In this document: one piece after another, positions 18,939 to 59,220 of the stretch
Layout of the letters: every line of letters starts with the position of its first letter
Position numbering within the stretch: the first letter of the stretch is position 1
From: Xylanimonas cellulosilytica DSM 15894
GTDB taxonomy: Bacteria > Actinomycetota > Actinomycetes > Actinomycetales > Cellulomonadaceae
Reading direction: 5' to 3'
NCBI RefSeq assembly: GCF_000024965.1
Contig: NC_013530.1
Location: forward strand, 2,232,001-2,296,000
Length of the DNA stretch: 64,000 nucleotides
Translations under genes and position numbers: made by a program
Notes under the pieces: generated by a model
What the model was told of the DNA's origin: nothing
Databases searched by the model: none
What the model saw: the letters and a program-made list of their open reading frames with translations, nothing else

Positions 18939-19951
18939 CGATCCTCACGATGGCGAAGGCGCTGAACGCGGCCCTGCGGCGGTCCCTGGCCGACGACCCG
19001 TCGGTGGTGCTGATGGGCGAGGACATCGGCCGGCTCGGCGGCGTCTTCCGTGTGACCGACGGGCTGCAGGCGGAGTTCGGCGCGCGCCGCGTCCTGGACA
19101 CCCCGCTGGCGGAGGCCGGGATCGTCGGCACGGCGGTGGGGCTGGCCTACCGCGGCTACCGGCCCGTGGTGGAGATCCAGTTCGACGGGTTCGTGTACGT
19201 CGCGTTCGACCAGATCGTCAGCCAGGTCGCGCGGATGTACGCCCGCACCGCGGGTGCGGTGCGGCTGCCGATCACGATCCGGATCCCGGTGGGCGGCGGG
19301 ACGGGTGCGGCGGAGCACCACTCGGAGTCGCCCGAGGCGTACTTCGTGCACACGGCGGGCCTGCGGGTCGTCGAGGTGGCGACGCCGCAGGACGCGTACA
19401 CCGTGCTCCAGCAGTCGATCGCGTGCGACGACCCGGTGATCTTCTTCGAACCCAAGCGGCGCTACTACACCAAGGGCGAGGTGGACACGGACGCCCCGCT
19501 CGCCGACGCACTGCCGATGGCGGCGGCCCGCGTCGTGCTGCCCGGCCAGGACGTCACGCTCGTGACCTACGGCGGTCTGGTCGCCACGGCCGTCGACGCG
19601 GCGGTCGCCGCCGCCGACGACGGCGTCTCGGTCGAGGTGATCGACCTGCGCTCCCTGTCCCCCGTCGATCACGACGCCGTCGCCGCGTCGGTGCGGCGCA
19701 CGGGTCGGCTCGTCGTCGCGCACGAGGGTCCGCACGAGGCGGGGGTCGGGGCGGAGGTCGCGGCAACCGCGACCGAGCGCTGCTTCGAGTACCTGGAGGC
19801 GCCGCCGGTGCGGGTGACCGGCCACGACATCCCCTATCCGCCGCCCAAGGTCGAGATGCACCACGTCCCCGACCTGGACCGGATCCTCGACGGCGTCGAC
19901 CGGGTGCTGGGCCGCGTGTCCGTTCCCGCGTCCGAGGCGGTGGCCCGATGA
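18935..19951 (+). CDS. bkdB: Branched-chain 2-oxoacid dehydrogenase E1 component, beta subunit
   Basis: A 338-residue transketolase-like subunit that pairs with E1 alpha. It carries LMGEDIGRLGGVFRVTDGL with the ThDP-activating glutamate, the EIQFDGFVYVAFDQIVSQVA stretch, and a C-terminal transketolase domain (VTLVTYGGLVATAVDAA, VEVIDLRSLSPVDHD). The ATG overlaps the E1 alpha stop by four bases (ATGA), implying translational coupling and equal subunit dosage. Confidence 0.9.
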   Translation: MTILTMAKALNAALRRSLADDPSVVLMGEDIGRLGGVFRVTDGLQAEFGARRVLDTPLAEAGIVGTAVGLAYRGYRPVVEIQFDGFVYVAFDQIVSQVARMYARTAGAVRLPITIRIPVGGGTGAAEHHSESPEAYFVHTAGLRVVEVATPQDAYTVLQQSIACDDPVIFFEPKRRYYTKGEVDTDAPLADALPMAAARVVLPGQDVTLVTYGGLVATAVDAAVAAADDGVSVEVIDLRSLSPVDHDAVAASVRRTGRLVVAHEGPHEAGVGAEVAATATERCFEYLEAPPVRVTGHDIPYPPPKVEMHHVPDLDRILDGVDRVLGRVSVPASEAVAR

Positions 19952-21561
19952 CCGCGCGCGAGTTCCTGCTGCCGGACCTGGGCGAGGGCCTCACCGAGTC
20001 CGACCTCGTCACCTGGCACGTCGCCGTCGGCGACACCGTCACGCTCAACCAGGTGATCGCAGAGGTCGAGACGGCGAAGGCGTTGGTCGACCTGCCCTCG
20101 CCGGTCGCGGGCGTCGTCACGGCCCTGCACGCGCAGGAGGGGCAGACGGTCGGCGTCGGCGCACCGCTGGTCACGTTCGAGGTGTCCGACGACGGCGACG
20201 CGGGTGGGTCGGCGTTCTCCGGGGGGTTCCCGGCACCTGCGACCGTCTCCGCGCCATCGTCGTCGGCACAGCAGGGCGAACCGGCAGGCCCGACCCTCGT
20301 CGGGTACGGCGCGGCGCCCGAGCGCGGCGGGCACCCGACGCGTCGGCCGCGGCGGTACGCCGTGCCCGCCACCATGCAGGGTGCCGCTGCGGCGTCGTCG
20401 CTGCTGCCCGCCGAGGTGACGCCGCTGTCCGCGGTCTCCCCGGCCGACCGGGCCCGCTCGACGCCCGGCGTGCGGGCGTTCGCGCGACGGCTCGGCGTGG
20501 ACCTGGCAGGTGTCCCGGGGACGGGGCCGGACGGGCGGGTGACCCGGCAGGACGTGGAGGCCGCGAGCGCCGCGGGTTCCGCGGGTTCCGCGGGTTCCGC
20601 GGGTGCCGCGCCTGGGGCTTCCGCGGCATCGGCCGGCGAGACCCGCACACCGGTCCGCGGTGTGCGTAAGCACACCGCGGCGGCGATGGTCGCGAGCGCG
20701 TTCACGGCCCCGCAGGCGTCGGTGCTGCTCACGGTGGACGCGACGGCGAGCATGGAGCTGCTCGACCGGTTGCGCGGCCACCGGCTCGCACGCGGCGAGC
20801 GGGTCACGGTGCTGGCCCTCGTCGCGCGTGCGGTGTGCGCGCTGCTGGGCGCGCACCCGACGCTCAACTCCCGGTGGGTGGACCTACCGGACGGCTCGGC
20901 GGAGATCGCGCAGCCCGCGCACGTGAACCTCGGCATCGCCGTCGCCACCGAGCGCGGCCTGGTCGTGCCGAACCTCCCGGCGGCCGAGACCCTGGGGCTG
21001 GCCGAGCTCGCCGCCGCGCTCACCGCGCTCACGCGCACCGCCCGCGAAGGCCGCACCGCCCCGGAGCGCCTGGCGGGCGGCACGTTCACGATCACGAACG
21101 TCGGTGTGTTCGGCGTGGACGCGGGCACCCCGATCCTCAACCCGGGCGAGTCCGGCATCCTCGGGCTCGGTCAGGTGCGCCGCCTGCCGTGGGAGCACGA
21201 CGGGCAGGTCGCGCTGCGGGACGTGGTGACGCTCAGCCTGACGTTCGACCACCGCGTCGTCGACGGCGAGCAGGCAGCCCGATTCCTCGCGGATCTGGGC
21301 GCCGTGCTGAGCGACCCGGCGCTCACACTCCTGGTGAGGTCTCAAGACCCGGCGCCCTCGGTGGTTGAGCCGGTCGAAACCACCCAACCCGACACCCCGG
21401 TGGTTGAGCCTGTCGAAACCACCCCACAACGGAACGTGGCTTCGACAGGCTCAACCACCGGCGCCACCCGACAGCGGAACGTGGTTTCGACAGGCTCAAC
21501 CACCGAAACAGGCTCAACCACCGGCGCGACCGCGACCGCCAAGGGCCGGGGCGCCTCGTGA
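19948..21561 (+). CDS. bkdC: Branched-chain 2-oxoacid dehydrogenase E2 (dihydrolipoyl acyltransferase) with repeat-derived tail
   Basis: A 537-residue E2 that transfers the acyl group from E1 to CoA. Order: one lipoyl domain (residues 1-80; lipoyl lysine K44 in [12 protein letters not shown]), a long low-complexity linker, an E3/E1-binding domain (about 170-205, [19 protein letters not shown]), an Ala-Gly-Ser linker built from a 9-bp tandem repeat (about 20571-20610), and the catalytic domain ending in the active-site motif [19 protein letters not shown]. The normal fold ends near residue 465. Residues 472 onward are an extra tail made of in-frame 25-bp repeats, read as VVEPVETT twice and then STGSTT. 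No E3 (lipoamide dehydrogenase) gene is in the window, so E3 must be shared. Confidence 0.9.
21359..21524. repeat. Cluster of 25-bp palindromic repeats inside the E2 3' end
   Basis: The unit GTGGTTGAGCCTGTCGAAAC with its closing CAC occurs in direct orientation at 21359-21384 (one variant base) and 21398-21423, in inverted orientation at 21436-21460 and 21481-21505, and as a truncated inverted copy at 21506-21523. GGTGGTT and AACCACC arms make each copy a small hairpin with an 11-base loop. Five of the six frames of the unit lack a stop codon, so it can lengthen an ORF in either direction; here it supplies most of the last 65 residues of E2. Other copies lie at 28763-28883 and 58683-58738. 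Confidence 0.92.
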
Positions 21562-23183
21562 CCGTCCTGGGCACCGCCGTCGACCCGCGCTCCGAGTCCG
21601 CCCACGCCACCGAGGTGGCGCAGCGGGCGTTGGCCGACCGGCTGCGCGAGCGCACCGCTTCCGCCGCCGTGGGCGGGCCGGAGCGCGCCCGGGCCACGCA
21701 CGTCGCGCGCGGCAAGCTGCTGCCCCGCGAGCGCGTCGAGCGGCTCCTGGACGAGGGCAGCCCGTTCCTGGAGATCGCGCCGCTGGCCGGGTACGGGATC
21801 GGCGCCGCGGCCGAGGGCGAGGCCGGGGACTGGCCCGGCGCGGGGGTCGTCGCGGGCATCGGGCTGGTCGAGGGCCGGCAGGTGATGGTCGTGTGCAACG
21901 ACGCGACGGTCAAGGGCGGCACCTACCACCCGCTGACCGTCAAGAAGCACCTGCGGGCGCAGGAGATCGCGCTGGAGAACCGCCTGCCGTGCGTGTACCT
22001 GGTCGACTCGGGCGGTGCGTTCCTGCCGCTGCAGGATGAGGTGTTCCCCGACCGGGACCACTTCGGGCGGATCTTCTACCAGCAGGCGAGGCTGTCCGCG
22101 GCGCGCGTCCCGCAGATCGCGGCCGTGCTGGGCTCGTGCACCGCGGGCGGGGCCTACGTCCCCGCGATGAGCGACGAGTCGGTGATCGTGCGCGACCAGG
22201 GCACGATCTTCCTCGGCGGCCCGCCGCTGGTGCAGGCGGCGATCGGCGAGGTGGTCACGCCCGAGGAGCTCGGCGGCGGCGCGCTGCACGCCCGCCGCTC
22301 CGGCGTCGTCGACCACCTTGCCGACGACGACGAGCACGCCCTGGACCTGGTGCGCGGCATCGTGGCGACGCTGCCGCCGGACCCGGCCCCCGCGTGGGAC
22401 GTGATCGAGCCGACCGAGCCGGCCGTCGACCCGGCGGGCCTGTACGCCGCCGTCCCCACCGACGTGCAGACGCCGTACGACCCCCGCGAGATCATCGCCC
22501 GCGTCGTCGACGGCAGCGAGTTGCACGAGTTCAAGCGCGAGTACGGCACCACCCTGGTGACCGGGTTCGCGCGGGTCTGCGGGCACCCCGTCGGCATCCT
22601 GGCGAACCAGGGCGTGCTGTTCGGCACGTCCGCGCTCAAGGGCGCCCACTTCGTCGAGCTGTGCGACCAGCGCGGCATCCCGCTGCTGTTCCTGCAGAAC
22701 GTGTCGGGCTTCATGGTGGGCACCGACGCCGAGGCGGGCGGCATCGCGAAGGACGGCGCCAAGATGGTCACGGCCGTGGCGACGACGCGGGTGCCGAAGC
22801 TGACGGTGATCGTCGGCGGGTCGTTCGGGGCGGGCAACTACGCGATGTGCGGGCGCGCGTACTCGCCGCGCTTCCTGTGGTCGTGGCCGGGCAGCCGCAT
22901 CTCCGTCATGGGCGGCGCGCAGGCGTCGTCGGTGCTCGCGACGGTCAGGAACGACCGCCTCGCCCGGTCCGGCGAGACGTGGGACCCCGACGACGAGGCC
23001 GCGTTCCGGGCGACCGTCAGCGACACGTACGAGCAGCAGGGCGACCCGTACCACGCGACCGCCCGGTTGTGGGACGACGGGATCATCGACCCGCTCGACA
23101 CCCGCCGCGTGCTGGGCCTCGCCCTCGCGGTGTGCGCGCGCACGCCCCTTCCCGAGCCCGCGTTCGGGCTGTTCCGGATGTGA
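21558..23183 (+). CDS. accD1: Acyl-CoA carboxylase beta subunit (methylcrotonyl-CoA carboxyltransferase type)
   Basis: A 541-residue carboxyltransferase subunit. Both crotonase-like halves are complete: the N-terminal carboxyl-CoA site region ([27 protein letters not shown], then [17 protein letters not shown]) and the C-terminal half ([26 protein letters not shown], then [35 protein letters not shown]). The [20 protein letters not shown] and [17 protein letters not shown] segments match 3-methylcrotonyl-CoA carboxylase beta more than propionyl-CoA carboxylase. The GTG start overlaps the E2 stop by four bases. With the following alpha subunit it would convert 3-methylcrotonyl-CoA to 3-methylglutaconyl-CoA in leucine breakdown. 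Confidence 0.9.
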
Positions 23184-27224: not shown

Positions 27225-28078
27225 ACCCCGCGCCGTTCACCCTCGGCCCCGCCCTGCTGTTCTGCCCCGGAGACCGCCCGGACCGGTTCGCCAAGGCCCT
27301 GGACCGCGCCGACGCCGTCGTGCTCGACCTGGAGGACGGCGTCGCCCCCGACCGCAAGGAGGCCGCACGGCAGGCCGTGGTCGACACCCCGCTCGACCCG
27401 GCCCGCACGATCGTGCGCGTCAACCCGGCGGGAACCCCGGACCACGACGCCGACCTCGCCGCGCTGGCCCGCACCGGCTACCGCACGCTGATGCTGCCCA
27501 AGGCAGACGGCCGGTTCGTCGGCCCGCTGGTGCGGTCCGACGGCACGCCGTACGCCGTCGTCGCGCTGTGCGAGACCGCGGCGGGCGTGCTCGCGGCCCC
27601 GGCGCTCGCGGCACGGCCCGACGTCGTCGCGCTGGCCTGGGGGGCCGACGACCTGGTGGCTTCCCTGGGCGGGACCGCCAGCCGGCGGGCCGACGGCGAG
27701 TACCGGGACGTGGCCCGGCACGCCCGCTCGGCGGTGCTGATCGCGGCGGGCGCCGCCGGGAAGGCGGCGATCGACGCCGTGCACCTGGACCTCACGGACC
27801 TCGACGGGCTGCGGGCCGAGGCGCTCGACGCCGCCGCCGTCGGGTTCGCCGCGAGCCTGTGCGTGCACCCGTCGCAGGTGCCGGTGATCCGCGCGGCCTA
27901 CGTGCCGGGCGACGACGCGGTGGCCGAGGCGCGCGCCGTGCTCGCCGCGGCGCGGCGCACCCCGGGGGCGTTCGCGCTCGACGGGCGGATGGTCGACGGG
28001 CCCGTGCTCAAGCAGGCGCACGCCGTGCTGCGGCGGGCGGGCCTCGACGCGAGACTCGACGAGGAGGTTCGACCATGA
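27221..28078 (+). CDS. CitE-like beta-hydroxyacyl-CoA lyase (HpcH/HpaI aldolase family)
   Basis: A 285-residue TIM-barrel lyase of the CitE/HpcH group. Substrate and metal motifs visible: CPGDRPDRFAKALDRADAVVLDLEDGVAPDRKEAAR, RIV-R-VNPAG region, and the Mg-binding Glu and Asp in LCETAAGVLAAPA and WGADDLVASLGG. No citrate lyase partner subunits are present, so it is a stand-alone acyl-CoA lyase. Its M. tuberculosis counterpart Rv2498c cleaves (R)-HMG-CoA and citramalyl-CoA, linking leucine and itaconate breakdown; the same reaction is inferred here and would explain why no HMGL-like lyase gene is in the operon. Confidence 0.85.
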   Translation: MNPAPFTLGPALLFCPGDRPDRFAKALDRADAVVLDLEDGVAPDRKEAARQAVVDTPLDPARTIVRVNPAGTPDHDADLAALARTGYRTLMLPKADGRFVGPLVRSDGTPYAVVALCETAAGVLAAPALAARPDVVALAWGADDLVASLGGTASRRADGEYRDVARHARSAVLIAAGAAGKAAIDAVHLDLTDLDGLRAEALDAAAVGFAASLCVHPSQVPVIRAAYVPGDDAVAEARAVLAAARRTPGAFALDGRMVDGPVLKQAHAVLRRAGLDARLDEEVRP

Positions 28079-28911
28079 CGGTGCTGCATCCCACGGCCGC
28101 CCGGGCGCTGGAGGGCCTGCTGCACGACGGCATGACTCTCGCGGTCGGCGGGTTCGGGCTGTGCGGCAACCCGACGGACCTCATCGAGGCGGTGCGCGAC
28201 TCCGGCGTGCGCGACCTGACGGTGGTGTCGAACAACATGGGCGTCGACGGCAAGGGCCTGGGGCTCCTGCTGGAGAGCGACCAGGTGCGGCACGTGCTCG
28301 CCTCCTACGTCGGGGAGAACGCGCTGTTCGCGCGCCGGTTCCTGGACGGCGACCTGGACGTCGAGTTCGTGCCGCAGGGCACGCTGGCCGAGCGGCTGCG
28401 CGCGGGCGGAGCGGGCATCCCCGCGTTCTTCACCGCGACGGGAGTGGGCACGCCGCTCGCCGAGGGCAAGCCGGTCCAGGAGCTCGACGGGCGCCGCTAC
28501 GTGCTGGAGCGCGCCATCGTGCCCGACCTCGCGCTGGTGCACGCGTACCGCGCGGACCGGTTCGGCAACCTCGTCTACCGGCGCACCGCCCGCAACTTCA
28601 ACCCGCTCGTCGCCGCCGCCGGGCGGATCACCGTCGTCGAGGCGGAGCACCTCGACGACGACCCGCTGGACCCGGACGTCGTCGTCACCCCCGGCATCTA
28701 CACGGACCGGCTGGTGCAGGCGCGCGAGCGCGTCAAGGACATCGAGCAACGCACCACCTCTCCGGTGGTTGAGCCGACCCCGGTGGTTGAGCCTGTCGAA
28801 ACCACGCCCGCCGCTCCGCTGGTCGATCCCACTTCTCCGGTGGCCGATTCCACTTCTCCGGTGGTTGAGCCTGTCGAAACCACGCCCCCCGACGCCGGAG
28901 CCCTCCGATGA
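28075..28911 (+). CDS. scoA: 3-oxoacid CoA-transferase subunit A with repeat-derived tail
   Basis: A 278-residue alpha subunit of a class I CoA transferase, which moves CoA from succinyl-CoA to acetoacetate. The glycine-rich [14 protein letters not shown] loop, [16 protein letters not shown], and [10 protein letters not shown] near the C-terminus are family signatures. The normal fold ends near residue 228 (KDIEQRT). Residues 231-278 are an extra tail made from the 25-bp repeat (VVEPVETT twice, plus decayed copies reading SPVADSTSP). Four-base overlap with both neighbours is kept despite the tail. Confidence 0.9.
28763..28883. repeat. Cluster of 25-bp palindromic repeats inside the scoA 3' end
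   Basis: Direct-orientation full copies at 28781-28805 and 28859-28883, a truncated copy at 28763-28780, and between them two decayed units (28812-28858) that keep the TCCGGTGG.CGAT core. All are in the frame that reads VVEPVETT. The same repeat closes the E2 gene seven genes upstream (21359-21524) and lies next to tRNA-Val (58683-58738). Confidence 0.9.
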
Positions 28912-58599: not shown

Positions 58600-58675
58600 T
58601 GGTGGGCCCGGCCGGACTCGAACCGACGACATCCACGGTGTAAACGTGGCGCTCTACCAACTGAGCTACAGGCCC
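58600..58675 (-). tRNA. tRNA-Val (anticodon TAC)
   Basis: A complete cloverleaf on the minus strand: 7-bp acceptor (GGGCCTG / CGGGCCC, one T-G pair), D-arm GCTCAGTTGGTAGAGC, anticodon stem CCACG/CGTGG with loop TTTACAC (anticodon TAC, valine), T-arm with TTCGAGT, discriminator A and an encoded CCA at 58602-58600. The tRNA body without CCA is 58603-58675. Confidence 0.96.
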
Positions 58676-58682
58676 CGGCCGC

Positions 58683-58738
58683 TGGTTTCGACAGGCTCAA
58701 CCACCGGGTGCGGGTGGTTTCGACAGGCTCAACCACCG
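58683..58738. repeat. Two 25-bp palindromic repeats between tRNA-Val and the peroxiredoxin gene
   Basis: Inverted-orientation copies of the VVEPVETT-type repeat at 58683-58706 and 58714-58738, 31 bp apart and linked by GGGTGCGGG. They fall in the 86-bp spacer between the peroxiredoxin stop and the tRNA 5' end. Their hairpins (GGTGGTT/AACCACC) could terminate or protect the peroxiredoxin mRNA. Confidence 0.9.
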
Positions 58739-58761: not shown

Positions 58762-59220
58762 TCAGATCTCTGCGAGCGCCGTCCGGTACGCCTGGAGGTC
58801 GCGGCGCTGGCCGCGCGGGTTCGTCACGGACCAGCGCACGACGCCGCCGGCGTCGATGAGGAACGTGCCGCGCAGCGCGTGCCCGTTCTGCTCGTCGAGG
58901 ACGCCGTAGGCGCGCGCGACGGCTCCGTGGGGCCAGAAGTCCGAGAGCAGGTCGAACGTGTACCCCTCGACCTGCTGCCAGGCCTTGAGCGTGAACACGG
59001 GGTCGGTGGAGACGGCGACGAGCCGCACGCCGGCGGTCTCGAAGTCCTCGATGTTGTCGCGCAGCTCGCAGAGCTCGCCGGTGCAGATGCCGGAGAACGC
59101 GAACGGGAAGAACACGAGCAGCACGGGTCCGTCGGCGAGCAGGTCGGCGAGGTGGACGGGCGTGCCGTGCGTGTCTTGGAGCGTGAAGTCGGGTGCCGGT
59201 TCGCCAGGCTGCAGCGCCAT
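58762..59220 (-). CDS. ahpE: AhpE/BCP-type peroxiredoxin
   Basis: A 152-residue thiol peroxidase that reduces peroxides. Peroxidatic Cys in FPFAFSGICTGELCELRDN, with a second Cys five residues later (CTGELC), the spacing seen in BCP-type proteins where it resolves the sulfenic acid; M. tuberculosis AhpE lacks this second Cys. The catalytic Pro/Thr of PxxxTxxC is replaced by the F-x-G-I-C form of AhpE. Its ATG overlaps the DUF3052 stop by one base. Confidence 0.9.
   Translation of the reverse strand: MALQPGEPAPDFTLQDTHGTPVHLADLLADGPVLLVFFPFAFSGICTGELCELRDNIEDFETAGVRLVAVSTDPVFTLKAWQQVEGYTFDLLSDFWPHGAVARAYGVLDEQNGHALRGTFLIDAGGVVRWSVTNPRGQRRDLQAYRTALAEI

Follow-up and report, generated by a model that had tools for sequence, protein, structure and literature searches.

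A REP-like palindromic repeat of Xylanimonas cellulosilytica that lies near gene ends and is read in frame in the tails of an E2 and a CoA-transferase subunit gene

The window, by which we mean the whole 64,000-nucleotide stretch of the Xylanimonas cellulosilytica DSM 15894 genome analysed here, contains a gene whose product is predicted to be a 2-oxoacid dehydrogenase E2, an identity supported by Pfam matches to lipoyl, E3-binding and catalytic domains. The catalytic domain ends at residue 461 of 537, the first repeat starts at about codon 471, and the gene shares its last 4 bp with the one that follows (21558-23183). An initial annotation had placed a 25-bp palindromic repeat at the end of this gene, in frame past the catalytic domain, with four complete copies and a partial fifth, two of them direct and the others inverted. 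The coordinates confirm this for an imperfect palindrome of ~25 bp, two copies of which lie in one orientation and the next two and a half in the other:

19948..21561, plus strand: 2-oxoacid dehydrogenase E2 gene (open reading frame and gene call; Pfam PF00364, PF02817, PF00198)
21331..21558, plus strand: E2 C-terminal tail past the catalytic domain, residues 462-537 (Pfam match ends at 461; same-genus orthologues short or worn)
21361..21383, minus strand: repeat copy 1, read as VVEPVETT, one mismatch to GTGGTTTCGACAGGCTCAACCAC
21400..21422, minus strand: repeat copy 2, read as VVEPVETT, exact match to GTGGTTTCGACAGGCTCAACCAC
21436..21458, plus strand: repeat copy 3, read as VASTGSTT, one mismatch to GTGGTTTCGACAGGCTCAACCAC
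21481..21503, plus strand: repeat copy 4, read as VVSTGSTT, exact match to GTGGTTTCGACAGGCTCAACCAC
21508..21524, plus strand: partial repeat copy, read as TGSTTG

Further upstream in the same gene, the second linker (20570-20606) holds a tandem 9-bp repeat, CCGCGGGTT, translated as SAGSAGSAG, which by eye looks like an ordinary flexible linker.

The repeat unit is a hairpin of ~25 to 27 bp with arms GGTGGTT and AACCACC, a 2-nt bulge, an inner GA/TC pair and the loop CARGC. The consensus of 130 copies is GGTGGTTTCGACAGGCTCAACCACCGGGG, in which the loop is nearly invariant, as is an asymmetric core of 13 nt, TTCGACARGCTCA. Folding beats that of shuffled sequences on both strands (z about -3 as DNA and -2.5 as RNA), and the 25-mer is free of stop codons in five of six frames, as had been proposed. 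At the stem pair beside the bulge, 81 places in three relatives gave T-A 40, C-G 18, T-G 9 and C-A 14. This covariation is significant when pooled over the three (odds ratio 5.7, p 6e-4), and taken singly the genomes gave an odds ratio of 1.9 (p 0.5) in G005 and 11 (p 0.08) in G001, with C missing altogether in G008; the signal is modest, and lineage may account for part of it.

The repeat is not confined to the E2 gene; confinement to it is what, by the initial annotation, would have refuted its reading. The 19-mer GGTTTCGACAGGCTCAACC occurs exactly 217 + 220 = 437 times in the 3.83-Mb genome, against 0 + 0 for a reversed control; allowing up to three mismatches gave 636 occurrences (control 1), and the core TTCGACARGCTCA was found 505 times (control 0). 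Copy number is therefore far above chance. Exact counts of GGTTTCGACAGGCTCAACC in ten other genomes of the genus (G001 to G010, in order) are 3, 134, 0, 0, 18, 1, 1, 19, 1 and 141, a range of 0 to 437 once X. cellulosilytica is included, several of the ten, three low-count ones among them, being incomplete. Beyond the genus the 19-mer is rare: one of 26 genomes from 24 other genera of the family has it (G033, 11 copies), as do two of 22 genomes from the rest of the order (G041 with 11 copies and G056 with one), and five of 396 genomes drawn from the phylum gave a match, the X. cellulosilytica genome counted.

Two other places in the window carry the repeat. One is the end of a CoA-transferase subunit gene in the same operon as E2, where domain PF01144 spans residues 7-215 of 278 and the tail is again repeat-built; the other is an intergenic pair flanked by a tRNA gene on one side and the stop of a protein-coding gene on the other:

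28075..28911, plus strand: CoA-transferase subunit gene with a repeat-built tail at its end (Pfam PF01144)
28783..28805, minus strand: exact repeat copy in the CoA-transferase tail, read as VVEPVETT
28861..28883, minus strand: exact repeat copy in the CoA-transferase tail, read as VVEPVETT
58600-58675: tRNA-Val, flanking the intergenic repeat pair at 58682-58736 on its other side
58682..58704, plus strand: intergenic repeat copy, one mismatch
58714..58736, plus strand: exact intergenic copy of the repeat, 26 nt away from the stop codon of minus-strand gene 58762-59220

Placement relative to genes was assessed in the window and 38 further stretches of 20 kb, together 824 kb or 21% of the genome, with genes called by a simple home-made codon-usage caller, using copies with up to three mismatches at least 1 kb from the stretch ends (n=112). 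Called genes make up 659,467 of the 746,000 sampled bases, and 81 copies are intergenic and 31 inside called genes. Mapping the copies relative to gene ends, as the initial annotation had proposed, bore out its view of in-frame copies for some of them, but in-gene copies are a minority because the repeat is chiefly 3'-intergenic and REP-like. Grouping copies within 150 nt gave 43 arrays, of which 15 lie between convergent genes, 11 between codirectional genes and one between divergent genes, and 16 touch genes (these statistics take protein-coding genes as the neighbours). Set against gap length, the intergenic arrays are enriched between convergent genes (p 1.5e-6), and the distance from array to adjoining gene end is 80 nt or less in 37 of 41 cases, with a median of 23 nt. 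The copy adjoining the gene end favours one orientation, by 23:7 (p 0.005) where the flanking genes converge and by 9:2 (p 0.07) where they run in the same direction. All 22 arrays of mixed orientation switch only once, and in a list of 51 arrays that includes the stretch ends 26 are mixed, 19 of them running minus-then-plus against seven the other way (p 0.03); the E2 tail array belongs to this commoner kind. In placement and array anatomy the repeat is REP-like.

Seven of the 31 in-gene copies were set aside: a match with three mismatches that looks like chance (L063), three copies no more than 23 nt from a called start and three in an N-terminal extension. The 24 copies judged secure form 11 arrays in ten genes of this sample of the X. 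cellulosilytica genome, all of them conserved according to Pfam:

HemA: five 36-bp repeat units in frame
HemB: repeat in frame
Cysteine desulfurase: four repeat copies
ClpB: repeat in frame
LigD: three copies in two places, both between Pfam domains
FolB-HPPK fusion: repeat between domains
Two-ATPase ABC protein: repeat between the ATPase domains
S9 peptidase: repeat inside the N-terminal beta-propeller match
E2 and CoA-transferase: repeat in the C-terminal tails, completing the ten

In predicted translation, 21 of the 24 copies read as VVEPVETT-like peptides or as a second kind (12 letters, not shown), and the remaining three, all in cysteine desulfurase, as GFDRLN. Ten of the 11 arrays are confined to two of the five open orientation-frame classes (binomial p 7e-4, assuming five equal classes). 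Some in-gene calls may be wrong because the caller is home-made; read from the codons, the two preferred frames have lower third-position G/C than the GFDRLN frame, and a caller driven by third-position G/C would therefore not favour them. HemA and HemB lie within 10 kb of each other in a haem gene cluster (L067, 2697-11994), and the N-terminus of an oxidase-like gene between them perhaps holds repeat copies too.

Comparison with solved structures places the repeats at extra residues. HemB has 16 more residues than 5mhb between its HGHCGVL and VDNDATLE segments, a single residue of the 9wep chain corresponds to 71 in cysteine desulfurase, ClpB has 11 more than 6dju ahead of the second ATPase domain, and the significant alignment of HemA to 1gpj ends at residue 278, right before the repeats. 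Within the genus, the HemB site is empty in G009, G006, G005 and G001, while G002 (locus L719) has at this site a long, related Gly/Ser-rich insert that apparently grew from element remnants; HemB of G004 and G007 was found and left unaligned at the site, and the HemB search gave no match in G003, G008 and G010. The five HemA units are absent from the five relatives examined, in which the length of this loop varies even where the repeat is absent. A MITE would have terminal inverted repeats and a target-site duplication; the unit has hairpin arms, and the alignment of filled and empty HemB sites, with diverged flanks, gave no clear target duplication. The CoA-transferase tail is without the repeat in G001 and holds worn forms (VREPVEVT, VSTSSD) in G009, and the two closest same-genus E2 orthologues follow suit, with a short tail and no repeat in G001 and a single worn copy (VVGPVED) in G009.

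These sites bear on whether the repeat is a regulatory site selected by the host (a terminator, an RNA-stability hairpin or a protein-binding site) rather than a dispersing element. Placement near gene ends, the orientation bias and the near-invariant loop would all fit such a site, and the differences in copy number between relatives could equally reflect loss. We nevertheless regard it as improbable: selected terminators would hardly be expected inside HemA, HemB, ClpB and further coding sequences, HemB sites are both filled and empty within one genus, and exact counts span the whole range given above, though three of the low-count genomes are incomplete.

A second alternative is that the E2 tail is a functional, selected feature of the protein, for example a spacer tuning assembly of the E2 complex, and that the repeat is kept for its peptide. 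The initial annotation had named a conserved domain among E2 orthologues as an observation that would speak against a repeat-derived tail. No such domain was seen: in the 70 readable tails obtained from 80 named E2 loci (the best 80 of 470 relatives, the nearest among those kept being Luteimicrobium xylanilyticum at 73%), the element peptide occurs in one, and 63 tails are short. Element-like units (up to seven mismatches in 24) do recur in E2 genes of other genera among these best 80 of 470 relatives, with 25 in 113,748 bp of E2 genes against 29 in 1,459,211 bp of flanks, counts that may include chance hits among those with six or seven mismatches and that draw on non-independent species. Twenty-two of the 25, at 13 loci, share one orientation and frame; ten of these loci belong to Arthrobacter or Pseudarthrobacter, and the units lie mostly in the first linker. 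The other three units are a palindromic echo of an L086 copy and two, in the lipoyl domain, that are probably chance matches. Units at L086 and L145 match at 23 and 22 of 24 bases, respectively, and Krasilnikoviella flava (L122) has units in both the linkers and the tail of its E2.

This recurrence in one orientation and frame favours a selected peptide, as do the similar peptides kept by the worn G009 copies (VVGPVED, VREPVEVT). Against it, the tail is absent in G001 and short in most of the readable orthologues, and units in other genera sit chiefly in a linker and not in the tail. Changes by codon position in the E2 linkers (8/21/35) match those of intergenic copies (4/15/24, p 0.87); an excess at third positions was considered as a sign of selection on the peptide and rejected, because the intergenic copies show the same pattern, and the linkers thus give no sign of such selection. 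We judge a selected tail quite improbable. An arrangement like that of the E2 tail was found on a plasmid of Arthrobacter sp. ERGS1:01 (L346, 1859-3139), in which the gene for a Gfo/Idh/MocA oxidoreductase (WP_082368803.1) ends in two in-frame copies and overlaps the downstream gene by 4 bp. The plasmid search with the window dimer that returned it gave three records, of which Arthrobacter alone is convincing.

REPs of the GTAG and CGTC families are described in passages of PMC3733652 as palindromes of 20-40 bp, present in high copy number, often in arrays and near gene 3' ends, and sometimes intragenic, inside open reading frames; a term search of the main text of that paper gave no mention of "Actinobacteria". 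The present repeat resembles them in size, copy number, hairpin, arrays, placement near gene 3' ends and occasional in-frame copies, and its palindromic form, high copy number and mainly intergenic position close to gene 3' ends make it a REP in the broad sense. Unlike GTAG and CGTC REPs it lacks the tag (by eye, neither motif nor its complement is in the 130-copy consensus), and no RAYT was found in 11 genomes of its genus. The Y1 transposase domain (Y1_Tnp, PF01797) gave no match in the 11 genus genomes, X. cellulosilytica included, nor in G033 and G041, and a Y1 transposase flanked by the repeat, as in RAYT-associated REPs, was not found; a control search was positive in five of 14 named genomes. 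Y1_Tnp and the core co-occur in a few distant genomes of the same phylum (six Y1_Tnp matches and 11 core copies in G246, three and five in G320), with no core copy within ~1.5 kb of any of the nine matches (loci L347-L355). A RAYT mobiliser was accordingly rejected, PF01797 being negative or unlinked to the core in the X. cellulosilytica genome, the genus and 30 chosen genomes or records. An ordinary REP of the GTAG or CGTC type, mobilised by a RAYT that was lost recently or whose gene lies elsewhere, would account for the general form and placement of the repeat (PMC3733652, in the passages noted) and for the few distant genomes that have both components; given the missing tag, the absence of Y1_Tnp from the 11 genus genomes, G033 and G041, and the unlinked copies in G246 and G320, we consider this unlikely.

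The Rickettsia palindromic elements (RPEs) are described in passages of PMC2229807 and PMC10969869 as palindromes of 105-150 bp lying in frame in conserved genes and also between genes. The present repeat shares both locations, with its 24 secure copies in ten genes, and differs in having a ~25-bp unit and an actinobacterial host, where RPEs, by those descriptions, are larger and Rickettsia-specific. The initial annotation's view that the repeat behaves like the coding palindromes of Rickettsia is upheld by the in-frame copies in ten conserved proteins and by the filled and empty HemB sites within the genus, but the label "selfish" is not supported, because no mobilising enzyme was found. Its remark that it knew of no published description of the family agrees with our searches of open-licence papers, which gave no account of the repeat or its peptides.

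Outside the Actinobacteria the core turns up in proteobacterial plasmids, where its arms differ. CCTTCGACAAGCTCAGG was found in at least 120 stretches of a viral collection, of which 80 loci were kept, and in 30 distinct other core matches of this set the inner three arm pairs match in 23, 26 and 25 cases, against 15.9, 14.0 and 13.1 for shuffled arms; in the viral sets whose core is followed by A, C or T, arm pairing is mostly like chance and these were discarded. A plasmid search with a 48-base query from a viral contig (L239) gave 97 records at E values up to 10. The one Comamonas stretch examined among them, from a Comamonas endophytica plasmid, contains two copies of the core whose arms differ from each other, with pairing over three bases in both before a mismatch interrupts it, and Phaeobacter plasmid matches at E 10 were dismissed as probably chance. 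The minus-plus pair of the window (21357-21461) aligns to Rfam RF02901 with E 2.8e-9 and 44.5 bits, below the gathering score of 97 that membership of that family calls for; RF02901 gave no match in L067 and L032 at E 0.001, and Rfam miRNA matches have E values of 0.03-0.2. RF02901, which Rfam labels AaHKsRNA41 (Aggregatibacter sRNA 41), has a consensus in which a core almost identical to that of the repeat occurs twice as an inverted pair, UGAgCUUGcCGAAGC ... UUCGgCAAGcUCA; it differs from the window repeat in its arms and in coming from another phylum. This resemblance to an inverted core pair raises the prospect that the Aggregatibacter sRNA may itself be a REP-type dimer.

We tentatively suggest, as a possibility that falls somewhat short of even, a miniature hairpin family that crosses phyla, with the near-invariant 13-nt core TTCGACARGCTCA and swappable self-complementary arms, spread by a trans-acting factor other than Y1. 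In the Micrococcales this family would repeatedly have given housekeeping proteins in-frame loops and tails, and would have landed separately in the linker or tail of E2 in several genera. Because the other viral sets look mostly like chance, the cross-phylum part of this suggestion draws on the CCTTCGACAAGCTCAGG set, the Comamonas plasmid stretch and the sub-threshold Rfam match.

The explanation that we find probable is narrower: the repeat forms a REP-like family for which no transposase is known and which resembles the Rickettsia coding palindromes in its behaviour, and the E2 and CoA-transferase tails are in-frame copies of it. This reading draws on copy number, placement, reading frames and presence or absence within the genus, on the residues in excess of solved structures, and on the Arthrobacter plasmid oxidoreductase as a separate case. 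Against it count the lack of any Y1_Tnp match in the 11 genus genomes, the HemB sites without a clear target duplication, the modest stem covariation and the varying length of the HemA loop. Units sit near gene ends, alone or in short arrays, and mostly face one way with respect to the gene upstream; there they most likely act as a 3'-end RNA hairpin. New sites would be reached by means of a trans-acting enzyme, and arrays probably grow by tandem duplication, as suggested by near-identical neighbours such as the five hemA units. With five of six frames free of stops, a copy arriving within a gene, or at the end of an operon gene that overlaps its neighbour, would survive where it falls in a loop, a linker or a tail, and would be read as one of the polar peptides VVEPVETT or VVSTGSTT. 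E2 and CoA-transferase each have a complete catalytic domain and a stop codon that runs into the start of the following gene, and their added residues most likely form a disordered and more or less neutral appendage.

The passages cited above report coding palindromes in conserved genes for Rickettsia and for the REPs of other groups. Here an actinobacterium carries them in HemA, HemB, cysteine desulfurase and ClpB, and for the genes compared (E2, CoA-transferase, HemA and HemB) relatives of the same genus show empty or different sites. The VVEPVETT and VVSTGSTT stretches seen in related proteins may, as these data suggest, be derived from the repeat rather than being domains. Two questions thereby become testable within a single genus: by what means such a repeat disperses when no Y1 transposase is known for it, and how frequently repeat DNA turns into protein sequence.
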